In this document: piece by piece, positions 8,311-38,569 of the stretch
Position numbering within the stretch: position 1 is the stretch's first letter
Layout of the letters: each line of letters begins with the position of its first letter
Assembly (NCBI RefSeq): GCF_004359215.1
Contig: NC_090613.1
Span: 199,041-263,040 of the forward strand
Direction of reading: 5' to 3'
DNA from: Bremia lactucae
Lineage: Eukaryota > Oomycota > Peronosporomycetes > Peronosporales > Peronosporaceae
DNA length: 64,000 nucleotides
Notes under the pieces: model-generated
What the model was told of the DNA's origin: nothing
What the model saw: the letters and a program-made list of their open reading frames with translations, nothing else
Database searches by the model: none
Program-made: the position numbers and the translations under genes

Positions 8311-8776
8311 TGTAACTGGGTGTATCGTTACATGAAATTAACACTGAAAGGTTGTTAGTTAATATATTATCTAAAAGGTAGATAATGTTTGGAGAATATA
8401 ACTTTACATGGTAATATTCTAAAAGCTTATCCATTGGCAGATATAGACCATTATATCTACTTTCTCCGCTGTCCAGTCAGAGTTGGAAGCGCGCAAAGAG
8501 AGAGACAGATTAGACTTTATTACATGTTTTGTATTAGTTTAAAATTAAGTAGTATTAAATAGATAGAAACAAAAGAACTTAATTATATTAAATACTGTTT
8601 TTAATTAACCCTCTTTAAAGCAAGTGTTTTAAAAGAGAGTCTTCTTCTGCACGTACTACTGTACGAGAAGTGAGGCACCACTCGCAGGTGATCAGTCGAG
8701 ATGTCACGTTCGACGACTGAGGCAGTGCGGAGTGGACTTGCACTGAAGCAGTACAAGTCAGTAGTGCCCCGTTACA
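8311..8776 (+). repeat. 5' LTR of B copy 1
   Basis: It starts TGTAACTGGGTG and ends GTGCCCCGTTACA. It aligns with the 3' LTR at 15810-16219 and the reverse-oriented LTR at 51370-51773. It carries about 55 bp near its 3' end (around 8665-8725) that the 3' LTR lacks. The near-palindromic ends (TGTAACGGGG / CCCCGTTACA in consensus) are longer than usual for LTRs. Confidence 0.85.
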
Positions 8777-12831: not shown

Positions 12832-14180
12832 TTGCGCTTGCGCATCATGTATGAGTATCACGATGCTCCAACAAGTGGACATCGTGGACGTGAGAAGACT
12901 TACCTCACAGTAAGTCGAGACTTTTACTGGCCCCGCCAGTATCAGTTCGTGCGCAAGTACATTCGTGCTTGCGAGGTATGTCAACGAGTGAAGCCTAGCC
13001 CTTCATCCCGTGCACCTCTTCAACCTCTACCACTTCCGGCAGAGTGCTGGCAGTCCGTATCTATGGACTTCGTCTTCGGATTTCCCGAAGACGATCACAA
13101 AAAATGGAAGCCGTGTTTTTGTAGACAAATTCAGCAAGATGGTATATCTTGTTGCAGTATCAGAGTCAATCACGGCTCCGAGCTGTGTCCGTATCTTCAT
13201 CGACACGGTATTCAGACACCACGGTATACCCCGTGAACTGGTCTCCGATTGAGATCTACGAATCAGGCGGAGTTTTGGCAATCCGTGTACTAGTTTCTTG
13301 AACACGGCTGCATTTGTCAGCTTCTGATCATTCGGAGATAGATGGTCAGACGGAACGCATCAATCGCGTCTTTGAAGAGATACATCGAGGTTCCGTCCAA
13401 TCGTATCCGAATTGGAAGCGAGTTTTTACCAATCGTAGAATTCGCCATCAACAATTCGGTTCATGCGTCTACAATGCATACACCGTACTTCGAATTGCTT
13501 ACGCCATCCACGCATACCCACACAATTAGAGGAATCATCTTGTCTAAGGGGGGGGGGGGGGACTCGCACGAGCAAAACCAGCTCTGGATCATGCTTATCA
13601 CGCGTCGAAATTACCGACGACGCGAATGATGTCGATGTCGAAGCAATCGACATCGAAAGAGAAACACTCAGCAATAGTTTGGACGCTATTGCTCCCAATA
13701 AAAAATTGTACCAGCGAGGAATCTCTAGCTGCAGAATAGAAAGATCTCATGGCAGTGCGCACAAAGAGTACTGATATACAAAATAAATGCGTCAATAGAG
13801 GAACTTCTGCTGGCTCAAGAATCAGTAGTTGTTTCATACAGGAAGGATTCCATTCCTAATGCAGTAGACCGGCAAAAATAGAACACAGACAAACATGGAA
13901 AAGCAAATGTTCTTTCATTTAAAACAATGATATAGTACTACTGTCTACGGTAAGCTTACCTAAGCCTGTAGTCACTATGTGGGAAGTAGTAAACTATTTC
14001 CCAAGTTCATTGGGCCATTCCGTGTACTGCATCGCAGAAGCAATGCGTACACAATAGAATAGCCACGAAGAATGCGACCACATCCTACGCATTACGTTGG
14101 TCGGGTCCGCTCGTACCATCGGTACGCGGTTTTTCCGCGGACGGATCTGACCCCCCCTCTCAAGAGCAAGAATCCCCACA
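12832..14180 (+). pseudogene. pol: Integrase of B copy 1 (broken)
   Basis: The zinc-binding region HRGREKT...CEVCQRVKP (12880-12990) is followed by the rve core: SMDFVFGFPEDD (first Asp) at about 13060-13090, the RELVSD (second Asp) region at about 13235, and DGQTERINR (catalytic Glu) at about 13345. A frameshift near 13110, a stop at 13252 and a poly-G run at 13549-13560 interrupt the frame. About 13980-14140 reads SSKLFPKFIGPFRVLHRRSN, the GPY/F module of chromovirus integrases. The domain inserts cDNA into the host genome. The sister copy is at 38372-39897 (-). Confidence 0.75.
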
Positions 14181-14522
14181 AAATTATTGTTATACGAACT
14201 AGAGTCTCATGTTGAGAATGGCGATTCTCATGCCGAATCCGAATTTCTTCGAAATCGCGATGAGCTGACGGCAGCTCATCACGAAGAGCGCGATACTTCC
14301 GTTCGTACACCAACATTGAGTACGCACTTTTCGAACGGTCTTTCAACCGTGATACGGTGAGTCAGCACCTTCTTTTTCAACGAGTAACGCTTACCGCGCT
14401 CGTGATCAAGACCCTCCTCCAATACATGAAGGTAGTGGTCGAGTTTGTCGATCTTCAAATCTAGATCCGACACATAGGTCGGATCTAATTCTTCCTCTTC
14501 CCCACAACCATTGAAGGATTCC

Positions 14523-14852
14523 CACGGTGGTCAACGTTTTTGTGTGGATCGTATTGAAAACCACTGTGATGTGAAGGGGCAGCGAACGAGTTGTCTTGTT
14601 CGATGGCGCGGTTATCAACCTTCGCATGACAGCTGAGAGCCTTGGCCCCAGCTGGTTGTTGACATTGAGGGCCTCGTCCGTCCGTATGACGAAGCCCATC
14701 CGATGGATAAGAAGGCCCATCGAAAAAATCGCATCGGGCATCTAGATAGAGATGAGAGCCCTTCCCAGGGCGAAGAAAGGGAACAAACAGCCCCTTTCAC
14801 TCGTTTCGTGATGTCGACACAACACGGACAGGGATCACCCCACTCCACGTGA
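14523..14852 (+). pseudogene. pol: Chromodomain and C-terminus of B copy 1 pol
   Basis: In one plus frame the sequence reads RIENHCDVKGQRTSCLVRW and continues with RGYQPSHDS, a stop, then EPWPQLVVDIEGLV. This matches the chromodomain pattern (a basic start, YLVRWRGY, then SWEP) found at the C-terminus of integrase in chromoviruses, where it guides integration to marked chromatin. Tyr before LV is replaced by Cys, and an in-frame TGA sits in place of the Trp of DSWEP. The frame ends at 14850-14852 and overlaps the 3' end of the antisense ORF by about 56 bp. Confidence 0.7.
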
Positions 14853-15717
14853 GGTATAGAAGTCCTGCCTCACAAGACAACCGATGAGGTTTAAACCTTG
14901 CACCGGTTGGAGTTCGTTTTTTAAACGTAACGCGAATCGCGTTATGTTTTTGAAGCCCGGCTTCACGTCCAGTGTCTTGGACATTGCGAATGAACGCGTA
15001 CCAGGCTTGCATCAACGAGCTTTTATCTCGCTAGTAGTGAAATTATACCATCGATGCTTAACAAAAATAGAGATAATAATTGCCTTCAGCGCGAACGCTC
15101 TTCGCGCTGGGATTAAGGCCATATAATTTTGTCGCAAAATATACTAACTAGCTGTTCGGGCAAAGCCACGGCTTCTTCTCAGAGGGCAAGACGAGACATT
15201 TATTGTCTGTTTTTCTGCACTCCCCTGAGTGGTACCCACTGAAGCAGGGGTACCATAAGAACTTTTATCACGATGTCTTACACCATCGTCATCACCACGT
15301 ACAGAAAAAGGTGCGGGTGACGATACCGGAGACGGTGCTGACGATGAGGAATCATTCTCATCGTTGGAACCAAACATGCTATAGCGAATGCTATCAGAAC
15401 TACTATTCGAGTGAACCCCGTCATTCAAAGGCTCATAGCTAGCTGCCTGACGAAGTTCAGGCGACTGTTCCACTCCCCGACTCCGCATTCGCAGCCGACC
15501 GCCAAAGAGGGTCGCATTAACGTGGTGACTCATCACGTGCATTCGTAAGAGTTAGTGCCGCGGGAGAAGATGATACTACGGCAGATAAATTATCTGCCGC
15601 ATGAGACAATAATGCGTCGCCCGCGCTGCATGTACCGCAGCCGAAGGTTCTGCCAAATCGCTGACCACATGGACCCGTTAACCATGCGATAGAATTGAAA
15701 GTAATGGTTCTGACCAA
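14797..15717 (-). pseudogene. Antisense ORF region of B copy 1
   Basis: The minus strand between the chromodomain and 3' LTR carries reading frames that match, piece by piece, the plus strand of B copy 2 (36743-37679). The pieces are an N-terminal part with LSHAADNLSAVV, a Ser-rich part (15144-15542) with ELRQAASYEPLND, and a C-terminal part (14797-15015) with RTPTGARF. In both copies the last frame stops at the same TGA after a STxRNE tail. Frameshifts separate the pieces in this copy. I recognise no known domain. It is not part of gag-pol and is encoded on the opposite strand, convergent with pol. Confidence 0.5.
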
Positions 15718-15794
15718 TCAACATCGTTTTTACTTAAATGGTCTTATAGTGACCGCTCTATTCAATGACAGTCAGCGTGATTGTCCTTTTTCTT

Positions 15795-15809: not shown

Positions 15810-16219
15810 TGTAACGGGGTGTATTGTTGCATTAAGTTAACAATTAAATGTTGTTAATAAATATATTACCTTAAAAGGCAGATAATATTATTGGAATACC
15901 ACTATATATTTTAACATTCCAAAAGCTTATTCATTGGTAGATATATGCCTTGCTATCTACTTGCTCCGCGGTCCAGACAGCATTGGCGCGCGCAAAGAGA
16001 GAGATAAAGATAAGACTATATTACATGTTTCGTATTAGTAAATAAATTAAGTTAGTAGAAAATAGATAGAAACAGAGGAACTTAAATATATTAAATACAG
16101 TTTACTTTTAACCCTATTTAAAGCAAATGTTTTAATTAGAGTCTTCCTCTGCACGTACTAGTGTACAGTGCGTAGTGGACTTGTACAGAAGCAGTACCAG
16201 TCGGCAGTGCCCCGCTACA
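15810..16219 (+). repeat. 3' LTR of B copy 1
   Basis: It begins TGTAACGGGGTGTATTGTTG after a polypurine tract and ends CAGTGCCCCGCTACA. It is colinear with the 5' LTR at 8311 but shorter. Only 36 bp separate it from the next element's LTR at 16256. Confidence 0.85.
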
Positions 16220-16255
16220 GGCATGATGCTAGACGCAAAAAGGAGTTGCTCTCGA

Positions 16256-16773
16256 TGTAGGCGGGCACGTCTTAATGCGGTCACGCTCTACTTAGACACA
16301 CACCCTAGCACAGTGAGGTAGCGGTTTAACCAGCTTCTCTTGCGTGCAGTGAGGTAGTTGTGGTGGGCGCGTTAGCGTCCTCACCCAACGCGCTAAGTAC
16401 TATAGTTGAGTGTCGTCACGGGAGCGGTTATCCGGCTCCTCGTGCGCACTTACTAAGTAGAAAGTAGTTTTCAGACCGATCTATATTTAATCGCAATTTA
16501 ATATAAATATCAAAACGTCATCTCTATAGATAACACTTAATATGTATTGCGAGCGTATCTTTCTAGATACCTCGCGAAACGGATGACGCTAGGCGTCATC
16601 CCTCCTAATGTGAATGTACCCATGTGCATCACATACACAAGGGTTGGTCAGAATCGTGAACCACACCCGAGTGCGGGGTCTAATTACTTTATCTAGTAAT
16701 TGACCATCCCCTTAAGTACACCAAATGTACTTAACGGGGACTGTGTAACATTAGGCAACTTTAGCCCGTTACA
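16256..16773 (-). repeat. 3' LTR of C copy 1
   Basis: On the minus strand it begins TGTAACGGGCTAAAGTTGCC at 16773, right after a polypurine tract, and ends CGCCTACA at 16256. It is colinear with 24581-25090 and 33958-34469. Confidence 0.85.
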
Positions 16774-17635: not shown

Positions 17636-17813
17636 CTAGCGAAGAGGCCTCAGCTGATGCTCCTTTTCATAGGTAGTCACCAAGCCGGGCACGTCAATAC
17701 GTAGGGTATCGATCGGTTCCCAAGAGTCAGAACTCTTCGGGTAACTTTTCCATTGGACGAGAATCTGATACCTTTGCCTCACGGAGCGGTGGCAAGCAAC
17801 CTTTCAACATGGA
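17636..17813 (-). pseudogene. pol: Chromodomain of C copy 1 pol
   Basis: Minus-strand frames give RQRYQILVQWKSYPKSS and then DSWEPIDTLRIDVPGLVTTY, a good chromodomain match with the conserved DSWEP. The frame stops at TAG (17636-17638). One frameshift lies near 17790, before the RQRYQ segment. Between this and the integrase end at 18237 is a Ser/Pro-rich linker; its plus-strand open frame (17946-18227) is a shadow. Confidence 0.65.
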
Positions 17814-18236
17814 AGTGTTGGTTCCCACCCGCATCCATTAGTGCAGGCGGCGCCTGATAGGAGTGGCGATCTTGCCTACCTACTCGCAGCTGCCTTACCT
17901 CCGTCCGTTTAGTCGCAGACGTGAAGCGCTACCGAACGACGTATTGTGGATCTCGAGGGTCAAGTCTTGCGACTGACCTCATATCTTATGGATGTCCGAG
18001 CGAAGGATCGTCAGGGTTATGAGCACCTGAAACTTCAGCTTTACATCCTGGAGAAGTTGATGCTGAGGCACCCGCATTACGCGCGTGGTATCCCTTGCTC
18101 TTCGAGTCCTAATCGTGGTGGGAGGAGTAATTCCGCTGAACGTTTTCCACCTTCACCGTCTCCCTCACCCCATCTACGTCACCATCGGTCCTTAGACAGA
18201 TGGGGGTATGTGACCTCATTTGGGTAGCATACCGCT

Positions 18237-30447: not shown

Positions 30448-31410
30448 GACAATCAAGCGTGAGTCACAGACACTTAGCATTTTCCTCGACGATGCGGGAA
30501 TGTGGACTTTGAAAGTCACTCGCCAGCAGAGGAGGAGGAGAAAGAGCGTCGTTTTCTCACGCCTTCTCCTCCGGATGTACGTCGGCGGGCCCCGAATCCG
30601 TTCCCAGAACCTGGTGCATTGAGCAGGACACGGGACCCTGAGTCCAATATCATTACGAATCCGCTCGATGAAGAGCAAGAGCGGATAATCCTCATAGAGG
30701 AAAGATCTCGTCGTCGGGCTGCCAAGATAGCGAAAGCTAAAGCTCATAGTGAATATAGATTCACTCCGCTTAGTGCGGACGAGCGTCTCAAAGAGATAGC
30801 GGGTCACAGCTTGATCAGCTGGATCTCCGGTAACCCGGCGAGGACGCCGGAGGATATCACTGCCCGCGACGCTCTTCATGAGCAATACCTTACGCCATAG
30901 GCAATAACGGGAAGCCAGTATCTGACGCGTTTACGTGATCAAGCCCGTGGAGCTCCGGTGTCCTCCATAAGGATAATTCCGATCGTTTTGTTTCCAAACG
31001 AAATAAGGAGTGAAAACGAAGTCTCATTTAAGAACCTGGTCCACCGGGCCCGCTGACTTCTTAATATTTGGAATATCAGACAGTCTGCGGATTAAGGTTT
31101 CGTTCGTTTGGAATGGAAGCTTCGCTTCGATTTCGCTAGGCTTATGGCCAAAGGCCAATTACGTTCGGCATTTATGCCACAAAACGAAGAAAGACCTAGC
31201 CGATATTTCAGTGCTTCGGTTGAACGTGCAACCATGGATCGACGCCGCACTGAGGCTATAGATCTACCTAATTCCACGTTTAGTGGTGGGAAGCGTCGTT
31301 TGACGCGAGTTGACCCTGAGCTTGGCGCACAAAAACGTCAACGGCTTACGGGCAATCTTGCCGAAGAGGTACCTCGAACTCCAAGAGTTTTCAGAAGAGG
31401 GGTATCTTAG
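30448..31410 (+). pseudogene. Antisense ORF of A-family element, copy 1
   Basis: On the plus strand, opposite to pol, an open region starts MTIKRESQTLS at 30448, shifts frame once near 30500, continues as DFESHSPAEEEEKERRF (30502-30900), passes a stop at 30898-30900 and goes on to 31410 (ending TPRVFRRGVS). The minus strand of the A element at 49780-50690 encodes the same protein in the same order with substitutions (MTIKRESQTLSTFLDDEGM, TPSPPDERRWAPNPFPE, RSSRYFSASVDRATM). Composition is charged, with basic patches (RRRAAKIAKAKA). No known domain was recognised. The last ~150 bp overlap the chromodomain on the other strand. Confidence 0.5.
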
Positions 31411-31470
31411 CCACTTCACCAGATACTGATACTGACCCTTACGACGACGTCGCTTTAAAAGCTTCTCCAC
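31264..31470 (-). pseudogene. pol: Chromodomain, A-family pol
   Basis: The minus-strand frame reads EKLLKRRRRKGQYQYLVKW and then LRYPSSENSW, the chromodomain core (YLVKW..YP....SW). It is the same as the plus-strand copy at 49622-49790 (EKLLKRRCRKGQYQYLVKW). After SW the frame departs from the family (SRYLFGK), so a frameshift follows. It lies at the end of pol, before the antisense ORF region. Confidence 0.75.
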
Positions 31471-32182
31471 ATGAAACTGAAGGTTCCCCCGCGCATCAAG
31501 CAGCGCGGGAGGGGGCCGAAATTCGGCGGAAGCATTTGATGCTCAACGGCACGAGGTGCAACTTCTTCGTGAGGTCCTTGCTCGGGTTGAGAGCTCTTTT
31601 GAGACGGTTCGGGGCTGACTTTCGACGCTGGAGCGTCTGCAGCCTCGTTCAGAGGGCCAGCTGGATATCCTGGTGAGGATGCAGCAATCTGCGGCACGAC
31701 CGTCTGTCTCGGCGCAAGCGTCTTCAAGTCCACGTTAGAAGGGTCCCGATGTGGCTTAAGCAAGCCGACGAAGAACACTGGATGTGTATCCATCTTTTAA
31801 GCGTGCAAGCTAAGCCCTTCTTAGCCACGACCGTAAAATGGTTAAATAACGCGCGGGCGCAATTAGGTCTTGAATACCGCGGAAACCATGTTAGTAGGTA
31901 GATTTTTAGCGTTTAATAAAACTCGGTCTCCGACCGCATAAGAATTAATACAGCTTTTACTTTTGATATCTGCTTGCTATTTTTGTTTGTCTTGGCTATC
32001 AGCCATCGCGTCACATACATGACTTAAGACACTAAAGTTGCGTCGCGAGAAACTCGCTTACTTGTTTCCGAATTGTAACAGGGCTGGTATCAGCAAGCCT
32101 ATCGGCTAATTCTCTCCCACCAAGCCCTGAACCACGCAGTGGTATGGTTAATGGAACGCGTGGGTGGGTAATACCGTTTACA
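31455..32182 (-). pseudogene. pol: Integrase C-terminal linker, A-family pol
   Basis: The minus-strand frame 31455-31793 begins DTHPVFFVGLLKPHRDPS, the segment that follows GPY/F in chromovirus integrases, then a Pro/Ser/Glu-rich linker leading to the chromodomain. Further right, 31800-32180 contains the decayed end of the integrase core; GGAACGCGTGGGTGGGT at 32153-32169 matches the complement of 49000-49016. The junction with C-family gag is near 32182. Confidence 0.6.
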
Positions 32183-33343
32183 TAATGCTACCCATTTGTT
32201 CCACAACTGTAAACTTAGGGGTGAGCTTCAGAGTCCGCGTCAATAGGGCATCCCGCCCCTACCGCGCTCCCGCATTTCCCGACCCCTCAGTGGTCAATGC
32301 AGAACTCATACGTCTCTCACGCTGGTTCTTGCCATCGCCTTTTGGGAAGGGAGTCCTCTTGCTGGGCATCTTTGCCCTAGTCGGGACCCTGGCATAGCAG
32401 CGAGCCATCATATGGCCGCGCTTGCCGCATTTATAACAGACAACGTCTGCATTGCCCAACTCCATAGGAGTGGCATCTGTCCTCTCGGCCGACGGCTGAT
32501 ACCAAGCTGTCGCCGAGGCACTGTTGTAGGATTGCTTCTGAACCAAGGCAATTTAGATTGCCTCTTCCATCGTCGACAGAACCTTTCTGAAAAGGGCCTG
32601 TTGCGATGGGCCATGCCGTAGTCCGTTCATAAACGTGGGCACCTTAATGTGCTCCAAAATCGGACCTACGATAATGGACGCCGACAGCGAGCGTATCTTG
32701 TGGAGATCGTTTCGCCTATCGCGCTCCAAAGAAGCGTGCCTGAAGCAACACTTCCTTGTTCGGCGGCTGGTACATGGCGCGAATCTTTTCCTTAAAGATC
32801 GCCCATTTAGGGAGCGCCTTTACGTCGGCCATAAGTGCTGAGTAAGCCCACTTTGAGGACTTACCGCGCAGATGCGACATGGCGTACGACACCTTCCGGC
32901 TGTCATCCTCGATGGTTTTAGTTGCGCAACATCGCATTGCTCCACGGCTAGCAGCCAGTGGACAATCGTGTGCGTTGTAGTTCCATCGAACTTGGGCGGG
33001 TCCATCCGAATGGGCCTCGGCTGATGCGGCCGGGCAGAGAGCATCTCAATAGTCCTGTTGAGAGCCTCGCTCCGAGCCTGCTCATGCCTCAGCTCATCCT
33101 GAGTCTGAGTAACGGACTCCGCCGCAGCATGGCCTTGTGCCTCGGACGCGGCCCTCCGCTGTCCGAGCACGAATGCCTCAAACTGCTCCAACTGAGCAAC
33201 ATGTTCTTAGGAGGACTACTCAGGAGCCTGGCCAAGGCTTGTTCACCAAGTCTCTGCGCCACAAGCCCTGCCACCTCACGACGATGTTCGGAGAGGTGGG
33301 GAAAATGAGCCCAATCAATATTGAGGCTCACCCGAACGTACAC
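32183..33343 (-). pseudogene. gag: gag, C family (in chimera)
   Basis: Minus-strand pieces: N-terminus 33089-33343 (SLNIDWAHFPHLSEHRREV), a Gln/Glu/Arg-rich middle (32820-33191), the core 32716-32937 (SYAMSHLRGKSSKWAYSALM) and 32259-32546 with a zinc knuckle CYKCGKRGHMMARC. The 73 codons at 32716-32937 are identical in protein sequence to 34921-35142 on the plus strand, so the two copies are recent relatives. A couple of frameshifts split the frame. Confidence 0.75.
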
Positions 33344-34513: not shown

Positions 34514-35560
34514 GTGTACGTGAGGATGAGCGTGAACATCGATTGGGCTTGTTTCCTCCACCTCTCCGAACATCATCGGGAGGTGGCAGGGCACTTGGAG
34601 CAGGGACTTGGTGAACAAGCCCTGGCTAGGCTCTTGGGAAATTCTCCTGAGCAGCATGTTGCTCAGTTGGGGCAGTTTGAGGCATTCTTGCTCGAAAAAT
34701 GGAGATCCGCGACCGAGACACAGAGCCATGCTGCGGCGGAGTCCGTCACTCAGACTCAGGATGAGCTGAAGCGTGAGCAGGCTCGGAGCGAGGCTCTCAA
34801 CAGGACTATTGAGATGCTCTCTGCCCGGCCGCATCATCCGAGACCCATTCGGATGGACCCGCCCAAGTTCGATGGAACTACAACGCACATGATTGTCCAC
34901 TGGCTGCTAGCCGTGGAGCAATGCGATGTTGCGCAACTAAAACCATCGAGGATGACAGCCGGAAGGTGTCGTACGCCATGTCGCATCTGCGCGGTAAGTC
35001 TTCAAAGTGGGCTTACTCGGCACTTATGGCCGACGTAAAGGCGCTCCCTAAATGGGCGATCTTTAAGGAAAAGATTCGCGCCATGTACCAGCCGCCGAAC
35101 AAGGAAGTGTTGCTTCAGGCACGCTTCTTTGGAGCGCGATAGGCGAAACGATCTCCACAAGATACGCTCGCTGTCGGCGTCCATTATCGTAGGTCCGATT
35201 TTGGAGCACATTAAGGTGCCCACGTTTACGAACGGACTACGGCATGGCCAATCGCGACAGGCCCTTTTCAGAAAGGTGCTGTCGACAATGGAAGAGGCAA
35301 TCTAAATTGCCTTAGTTGAGGAGCAATCCTACAAAAGCGCCTTGGGGACAGCTTGGTATAAGCCGTCGACCGAGAGGACAGATGCCACTCCCATGGAGTT
35401 GGGCAATGCAGACGTTGTCTGTTATAAATGCGGCCATATGATGGCTCGCTGCTATGCCAGGGTCCCTGCTGGGGCGAAGACGCCCAGCAAGAGGACTCCC
35501 TTCCCAAAAGGCGAAGGCAAGAACAAGCTTTGGAGACGCATGAGTTCTGTTTCGACCACT
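34514..35560 (+). pseudogene. gag: gag of C copy 2 (frameshifted)
   Basis: Starts at ATG 34514 (MYVRMSVNIDWACFLHL), with 174 codons to 35038 including a charged coiled-coil-like stretch (QTQDELKREQARSEALNRT) and RPIRMDPPKFDGTT. A shift near 34930 leads to 34921-35142 (SYAMSHLRGKSSKWAYSALM), another to 35342-35758 with the knuckle region CYKCGHMMARC, where four residues (KRGH to H) are missing compared with CYKCGKRGHMMARC, so the zinc-binding spacing is broken. Gag forms the particle and binds RNA; this copy is defective. Confidence 0.8.
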
Positions 35561-36305: not shown

Positions 36306-36433
36306 GGACTTCCATGCCTCACGTCGGGGGATCCCTGTCCGTGTTGTGTGGACAACACGAAGCAATTAAAAGGGGATGTATATTCCATTTCTTCGCCCTG
36401 GGGGAGGGCTCGCATCTCTATCAAGATGCGGGT
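36306..36433 (+). pseudogene. Fragment of B-family antisense ORF end
   Basis: It matches 37617-37740 (GGACTTCCATGCCTCACGT, then CCGTGTTGTGT.GACAACACGA). It ends abruptly where B-family LTR sequence begins at about 36434. It is a third copy of the 3' end of the B antisense region. Confidence 0.6.
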
Positions 36434-36618
36434 TGCGTGCGTCCAATGCTGACTGGACCGCGGCGCAAGTAGATATCAAGGCCTATATCTACCAGTGAAT
36501 AAGCTTCTCGAATGTTATAATATAAAGTGGTATTCCCAAAATATTATTTACCTTTTAAGTAATATATTTATTAACAACATTTAATTATTAACTTAATGCA
36601 ACAATACACCCCGTTACA
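36434..36618 (-). repeat. 3' LTR fragment of B copy 2
   Basis: On the minus strand it begins TGTAACGGGGTGTATTGTTG at 36618. About 185 bp remain before unrelated sequence at 36433. A polypurine-like tract follows to the right (36619-36632). Confidence 0.8.
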
Positions 36619-36742: not shown

Positions 36743-37679
36743 ATGGTTAACGGGTCCATGCGGTCAGCGATTTGTGCAGAACCTTCGGCTGTGGTACAGG
36801 CAGCCGCGAACGACGCATTATTGTCTCTTGCGGCAGATAATTTATCTGCCGCAGTGTCATCTCCTTCCGCAACACCAACTATTACGAATGCGAATGATGA
36901 GTCACCGCGTTAATGCGACCCCTCTTTAACGGTCGGCTACGAATGCTAGTCGGACAAGATGGCCGAATCGGAGAGTGGAACAGTCGCCTGAACTTCGTCA
37001 GGCAGCTAGTTATGAGCCTTTGAATAGGGGGCTAAGTCGAATAGTCGTGCTAAAAGCATTCGCTATAGCATGTTTGGTTCCAGCGATGAGGATGATTCCT
37101 CATCGCCAGCACCGTCTCCGGTACCGTCACCCGCACTTATTTCTGTGCGTGGTGATGACGATGGGGTAAGACATCGTGATAAAAGTTTTTGTGGTACCCC
37201 TGCTTCAGCGGGTATCACTCAGGGAGTGCAGACAATAAAATGACTCGTCTTGCCTCTGAGAAAAAGCCGTGGCTTTTGCCCTAACGGCTAGTCAGTAGCT
37301 TATCTGGAATGACGACTCTCACAATAAAAATCATTTTTATGTTGCGGCAAAGCTACATGACCTTGATCCCAGCGCGAAGAACTTTCGCGCTGAGGAAGAG
37401 TTTTATCTCGATGCTTTTCTTAAGCTTCGATGGTATAGTTGCAACAACAAGCAAGATAAAATCTCGTTGACGCAAGCCTGGAGCGCCTTTGTTCGCAATG
37501 TCAAAGACATTAGACGCGAAGCCTGGCTTCAAACACCTTACGCGATTCGCGTTAAGTCTGAGAGACGAACTCCAACCGGTGCAAGGTTTGAATTGCATCG
37601 GTTGTCTCGTGAGGCAGGACTTCCATGCCTCACGTAGGTGATTCCTGTCCGTGTTGTGTCGACAACACGAAACGAGTGA
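36743..37679 (+). pseudogene. Antisense ORF region of B copy 2
   Basis: On the plus strand, opposite to pol. Three open pieces: 36743-36913 (56 codons: MVNGSMRSAICAEPSAVV ... NANDESPR, stop), a Ser-rich piece at about 36970-37240 (RYSMFGS, then SPAPSPVPSPALISVRGDDD) and 37313-37640, an open frame without ATG reading AAKLHDLDPSAKNFRAEEE, then SLTQAWSAFVRNVKDIRREA and RTPTGARFELHRLSREAG. The corresponding pieces on the minus strand of B copy 1 (14797-15717) keep the same order, stops after DESPR and after STTRNE, and mostly the same residues. Frameshifts or unrecognised introns separate the pieces. No known domain. It converges with pol, whose frame ends near 37728. Confidence 0.5.
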
Positions 37680-37727
37680 TAGGAGATTTTTACTCTATTT
37701 CTTCGCCCTGGGAAAGGGCTCGCGTCT

Positions 37728-38569
37728 CTATTGAGATGCGGGATGCGATTGACGCTTTGCAATCGATTTACAAGCGCCAGGAACGCGTGATTTCCGATGG
37801 ACCTTCTGATCCATCGGATGGGTCCCATCATACTGACTGGCGAGGCCCTCAACGTCAACAACCAGCTGGGAACGAGGCTCCCAGCTGTCATGCAAAGGTG
37901 GATAACCGCGACAGCGAACCAGATAATTCGTTCGCTGCCCCTTCACATCACGGTGGTTTAGAATACGACACGGAAGAAAACGTTGACCACCGTGGGATCC
38001 CACCAATGGTTGTGGTGGAGGAGGAAAAATTAGATCTGTACCTTGTGGTGGAGGAGGAAAAATTAGATCTGTACCTTGTGCCGGATCTAGAGTCGAAGAT
38101 CGACAAAATCGATCGTTTCCTCCATGATTTGGAGGAGGGACTTGGTCACGAGCGCGGTAAGCGTCGCTCGTTCGAGCAGACGGTGCAGACTCACTATATC
38201 GAATGGTTGGAAGACCGTTCGAAGAGTGCGATCTCAATGTTGGAGTATGAACGGAAATATCACGCTCTTCGTGATGAGCTGTCGTCAGCTCATCGCGGCT
38301 TCGAGGATCTTCGGACCCGGCTTGAGAACCTCCAGATTCAGCATGAGAATCTGGTTCGTGACCACAAGAATCTATAAGGGATTCTTGAAAAGGGTGGTCA
38401 GATCCGTCCTTGGGAGAAACCGCGTACTGAGGGTACGGGCGGAGCCGACCAACGTAAAACGCAGGATGCGTTCGCATCCTACGTGCAATTCTATCGTGTA
38501 CGCATTTCCTCTGCGATGCAGCTCGCGGAATGGCCCAATGTACTTGGAAAATAGTTTACTACTACCCAC
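37728..38569 (-). CDS. pol: Integrase C-terminus and chromodomain of B copy 2 pol
   Basis: Two minus-strand frames: 38372-38569 with KLFSKYIGPFRELHRRGNAY (the GPY/F module), then, after a shift, 37728-38477 (249 codons) starting RTHPAFYVGRLRPYPQY, a polar linker and the chromodomain HGGQRFLPCRIL...NYLVRCRGYPPLHDSWEP ...LVVDVEGL. The linker includes an exact 33-bp tandem duplication (38012-38077), seen as QGTDLIFPPPP repeated. The plus-strand frame over 37680-38377, 233 codons and rich in charged heptad-like residues, is open through the same bases; I regard the pol reading as the real one because it matches known modules. Confidence 0.75.
38012..38077. repeat. 33-bp in-frame tandem duplication
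   Basis: GTGGTGGAGGAGGAAAAATT at 38012 is repeated at 38045; both 33-bp units are identical. It keeps both the pol frame and the antisense frame open. Confidence 0.9.

Follow-up and report, generated by a model that had tools for sequence, protein, structure and literature searches.

The antisense frame and its place in the element

The window analyzed here is a 64,000-nucleotide stretch of contig NC_090613.1 from the oomycete Bremia lactucae (positions 199,041 to 263,040, forward strand). It holds two broken copies of a Ty3/gypsy element family, the B family, whose pol ends in a chromodomain, and in both copies the strand opposite to pol carries the remains of a conserved antisense gene (Table 1). 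Pieces of both copies match gag, CCHC, protease, RNase H, and integrase families of Ty3/gypsy type; no reverse transcriptase (RT) match was obtained with these broken pieces. The chromodomain of copy 2 is recognized by Pfam (PF00385 in the pol tail P0002, E-value 3e-08). The antisense peptides named in the initial annotation, ELRQAASYEPLN and RTPTGARF among them, are indeed found in both copies, on the minus strand in copy 1 and on the plus strand in copy 2; the beginning that it gives for copy 2, position 36743, is an ATG. In copy 1, the antisense ATG is situated 124 bp from the 3′ long terminal repeat (LTR).

The extent of the frame was read from related copies. A search of the same genome with this stretch yielded 45 matches (the best 40 of 2450 first-look candidates were scored); 40 stretches were collected and 41 copies aligned, of which 38 were kept once three near-identical ones had been removed. 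In the stop map of these 38 copies, the antisense frame runs for 568 codons without a common stop, from window position 15695 to 14085. The next longest frame, pol itself, has 355 codons and is cut by the slice, and in the other frames the longest stretch lacking a common stop is 183 codons. The initial annotation had ended the antisense frame at a shared stop near 14797 (37679 in copy 2) and had placed it outside gag-pol. That stop lies in another frame, and the true frame runs on to 14085, while pol is free of common stops as far as 14747. Therefore, only the first two thirds of the gene occupy the interval from the pol stop to the 3′ LTR; the last third, about 660 bp, faces the linker and chromodomain of pol. 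The antisense observation is thus confirmed, and the gene is larger than first described.

Both copies in the window are decayed, with 11 stops per 507 matched codons of the antisense gene in copy 1 and 7 per 553 in copy 2. In younger relatives the frame is open, contrary to the outcome that the initial annotation had named as speaking against it: two of them, L052 and L053, have 426 and 427 open codons. These lengths exceed chance, as sequences simulated under a first-order dinucleotide model (300 for each) reach only 236 and 215 codons, respectively. In L053, the opposite strand has an open pol tail as well, 288 codons long. A divergent relative from the same genome, L055, 47% identical to the homologue P0012, shares the start and the tail of the gene. 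The open 250-amino acid (aa) piece of copy 2 has 153 matches in the genome (best 150 of 5261 candidates scored).

Table 1. Features of the antisense gene and of the elements that carry it, in window coordinates
Feature	Position	Strand	Basis or remark
Antisense gene, copy 1, broken	14085..15685	-	ATG 15685-15683, stop 14087-14085
Antisense gene, copy 2, broken	36743..38461	+	ATG 36743; matches reach last residue of homologue P0004, ~38461
Overlap of antisense gene and pol tail, copy 1	14085..14749	both	End set by common pol stop ~14747
Open 250 aa antisense piece of copy 2 (P0001)	37625..38377	+	Open frame
Open pol tail of copy 2 with chromodomain (P0002)	37728..38477	-	Pfam PF00385
Chromodomain remnant at pol end, copy 1	14502..14735	+	tblastn of copy 2 chromodomain
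3′ LTR, copy 1 (TGTAACGGG...CCCGTTACA)	15810..16773	+	
5′ LTR remnant, copy 1	8311..8664	+	81% identical to 3′ LTR start

Two further fragments of the gene were observed. On the 3′ LTR side of copy 2, positions 36306-36437 hold a second, displaced piece (P0004 residues 289-332, 84% identical), which forms the direct repeat D11 with 37637-37747. In the relative L051, a piece like the gene's own EMRDAIDVLQSIYKRQGRVFSDGP stretch lies upstream of the gene on the antisense strand and in the same orientation, perhaps as a duplication or a nested fragment.

Selection on the two strands and the overlap in other genera

To compare the strands, codons were paired by tblastn with the homologue P0004 as query; each of the 44 copies searched gave a match. 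The ratio of non-synonymous to synonymous substitution rates (dN/dS) was calculated, with stop codons excluded, for six young copies (L049-L054) against 38 other copies and pooled; the limits given are the 2.5-97.5% limits from 60 resamplings of the other copies. Tables of medians omit pairs with fewer than 60 codons or, in the second table, with less than 70% of the stretch. At the N-terminus (P0004 residues 1-165), dN/dS is 0.58 (0.55-0.61) in the antisense frame and 0.81 in the pol frame of the same DNA; in the central part (166-330) the values are 0.46 (0.42-0.49) and 1.10. Opposite the pol linker (431-545), where the antisense gene encodes a predicted coiled coil, they are 0.45 (0.41-0.49) and 1.12. 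Opposite the chromodomain core (361-430) they are 0.88 (0.79-1.01) and 0.55 (0.49-0.62). The two shifted antisense frames have median dN/dS of 0.73-1.45. Purifying selection thus acts on the antisense frame where the pol frame is neutral, and the roles are reversed at the chromodomain core. Substitutions devoid of a codon pattern, which the initial annotation would have counted against a coding frame, are not what we see, as dN/dS is frame-specific. Since selection acts on the antisense amino acid sequence, the protein itself matters.

The natural 427 aa piece has 193 protein matches at E ≤ 1e-3, and a profile search gave 156; homologue names given here come from the best 120 of each. Among the matches listed are proteins of Peronospora matthiolae, in clusters of 1335 and 524 member sequences, of P. 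effusa, and of Hyaloperonospora arabidopsidis; the closest match listed is 93% identical. The profile search named no further genus among those listed. The full-length homologues examined have 529-593 aa in Peronospora species; that of Hyaloperonospora is shorter, 463 aa. The antisense protein is annotated as 'uncharacterized protein', and the largest of its clusters among the matches listed has 1335 member sequences. One homologue, P0009, is named elsewhere as a tyrosine recombinase core-binding domain; it has no Pfam match, and the domain model has no Foldseek match at E ≤ 0.001.

By back-translation we asked whether the strand opposite to an antisense homologue can encode a chromodomain. 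Of 121 antisense homologues, 87 accommodate all 12 key residues, in every case at one and the same alignment column and in no phase other than the expected one; in the remaining ones the stretch is absent or different. Pol-tail homologues were found separately (163 at E ≤ 1e-3), and the best 120 were compared residue by residue with 89 of 178 antisense homologues. An unbroken compatible run of at least 20 residues with one of the 89 was found for 85 of the 120 pol tails; runs of at least 30 residues occur in 38 and of at least 100 in three. In the shuffled control (against 45 of the 89), none of the 120 reached 20 residues, the longest run being 13. Among 19 of the 120 pol tails that were examined more closely, the longest run, 125 residues, joined two P. 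matthiolae proteins, and two P. effusa proteins shared a run of 38; wrong phases gave runs of at most 53 residues. As the antisense and pol-tail proteins fit when back-translated, the overlap is common to several genera. If inherited vertically, it would predate their split.

Predicted protein and surroundings of the gene

An AlphaFold2 model was built on 42 sequences, with a mean predicted local distance difference test score (pLDDT) of 61. It has low confidence at residues 1-167 and 349-426, a helical domain at 168-300, a helix at 319-342, and a single helix of 108 residues at 429-536 with pLDDT of about 96. Modelled alone, the helical domain has a predicted template modelling score (pTM) of 0.64. 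The N-terminus is predicted to be disordered and acidic. For the long helix, a heptad pattern exceeds that of shuffled sequences in four of five coils tested (p 0.0005-0.008). W243, R272, G276, H282, E287, G289, and C292 are invariant in all 42 aligned proteins. From its motif, the His/Cys set, comprising H282 and C292 (42/42) together with C299 and C302 (40/42 each), would suit a zinc site, and the basic KKxR tail would similarly suit nuclear import. The predicted disordered stretch faces the chromodomain, and the coil faces the low-complexity linker of pol.

In relatives, an oomycete initiator-like word recurs at a fixed place, about 15 bp before the antisense ATG; 19 of 30 anchored stretches have it. 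This is a lead only on where antisense transcription might start. Elsewhere in the window, two other remnants of chromodomain elements, about 40% identical, lie on the minus strand at 17651-17830 and 31372-31521. No antisense homologue was detected near them, so the antisense gene looks like a trait of the B family. In addition, the window contains a large inverted repeat (32424-33203 and 34655-35434; 780 nt, 96%, 1451 nt apart).

Known systems and competing explanations

The plant aORF-3R of Grande, RIRE2, and Retand, an open reading frame (ORF), is likewise antisense and placed between pol and the 3′ LTR (PMC7264820, PMC11963269). In both cases a Ty3/gypsy element has a conserved antisense gene next to its 3′ LTR, on the side facing pol. 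Unlike the plant ORF, however, the oomycete gene overlaps pol by about 660 bp and encodes a different protein; the plant class, in the parts of the descriptions available, is presented without such overlap. Plant antisense ORFs are described as having an unknown function and a suspected nuclear role, some with Smc-like (coiled-coil) matches, and the Retand proteins carry a TRP28 domain (PMC7264820, PMC11963269). Here, TRP28 (PF04195) gave a single match in the genome, with E 0.91, below the cut-off, and none in seven homologues.

HBZ of HTLV, and APH, are also retroelement antisense genes read from the 3′ LTR side, with a product of coiled-coil type, as far as the available accounts go. They belong to another host and another element, and no bZIP family was found among Pfam matches of the seven homologues (E up to 1). 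The analogy with HBZ and with the plant antisense ORFs concerns how the product might work, not family membership. Closer by host is Chronos, a Ty3/gypsy element of oomycetes whose pol likewise ends in a chromodomain and in which the gypsy RNase H is followed by an additional one (PMC5348765). No additional RNase H was matched in 20 pieces scanned from decayed copies here, and copy 1 has about 113 codons between RT_RNaseH and Integrase_H2C2. The description of Chronos, in the part available, contains no antisense gene (PMC5348765).

The antisense gene itself is well supported by the common open frame, selection on the amino acid sequence, the homologues, and the fit of the overlap in other genera. 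The explanation that we prefer, at about even odds for the whole of it, is a conserved protein-coding gene opposite pol whose product would be a coiled-coil, likely nuclear regulator of the element. Its transcript would begin in the interval that separates the 3′ LTR from the ATG. By analogy with HBZ in HTLV, the product would pair through the coil, enter the nucleus, and act there on transcription or chromatin of the element itself. Probably the two genes alternate in their use of the DNA, one product being folded where the other is predicted disordered and under little or no selection. With somewhat less confidence, we propose a new oomycete antisense accessory family, HBZ-like, independent of plant and retroviral ones in origin, and locked in mutual overlap with the pol chromodomain. 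What the initial annotation had inferred is partly supported: a conserved antisense protein frame placed comparably to plant antisense ORFs stands, while its end point and its location outside gag-pol do not. The elements, which have a chromodomain, may be chromoviruses, as that annotation called them.

Several observations weigh against the preferred explanation. Pairing codons by tblastn favors conserved pieces and may lower dN/dS. In a codon-phase test over 14731-15725, only one of 13 overlapping stretches reached p < 0.05, with the expected third position most variable in 10 of the 13. For alleles present in at least four copies, 14740-15140 (p 0.24) and 15140-15690 (p 0.46) were not significant; only 14095-14471, the part opposite the linker, was (p 0.0001). 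The initiator-like word is missing before the ATG in both window copies and in the divergent L055, and one of the five coils, that of P0017, lacks a clear heptad pattern (p 0.097). Neither the antisense protein nor its models matched any named domain or known fold, so the regulator role is argued from architecture and analogy. The evidence for the gene and its product comes, moreover, from sequences and models.

Of the alternatives, a structural or assembly protein, such as a coiled-coil protein that joins Gag in the particle or serves in packaging or transport, encoded in reverse orientation, is unlikely, if the least so. A long predicted coil with a helical domain is equally usual in assembly proteins; still, the basic tail and the acidic disordered N-terminus would fit a nuclear protein somewhat better, and the lack of a capsid-like Pfam match in the antisense protein argues slightly in the same direction. 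We doubt more strongly that the product blocks silencing caused by double-stranded RNA from sense and antisense transcripts. As about 660 bp of the gene lies opposite pol, convergent transcripts would pair, but no known silencing suppressor or RNA-binding domain was matched, with no test aimed at this function. Improbable, too, is a captured host gene that is carried along by the element and has a host-type function. Capture of genes has been proposed as one source of antisense ORFs (PMC7264820), but no host gene is named among the matches listed, and antisense homologues from different genera still fit the pol tail. Finally, non-coding antisense transcripts are known in other elements (PMC7264820), but that only the RNA matters here, the frame staying open merely as a side effect of codon bias in the pol strand, is very hard to reconcile with dN/dS of 0.46 against 1.10 in the central domain, beyond pol, where no sense gene imposes it, and with a protein conserved across genera.

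Antisense genes of LTR elements have so far been described mainly in plants and retroviruses. The B family provides a further, unrelated case, with a long overlap in several genera and selection alternating by strand, which suggests that such genes evolve repeatedly. The overlap with pol lets one test, in a natural case, how the same DNA can serve two proteins. If the proposal of a new, HBZ-like family is true, a single stretch encodes both a chromatin reader that places new copies and a regulator that controls the element. Gypsy elements are reported to make up 58.6% of the contig sequence in B. lactucae (PMC6570648); as they form the bulk of the genome, a protein controlling them would matter for genome growth.
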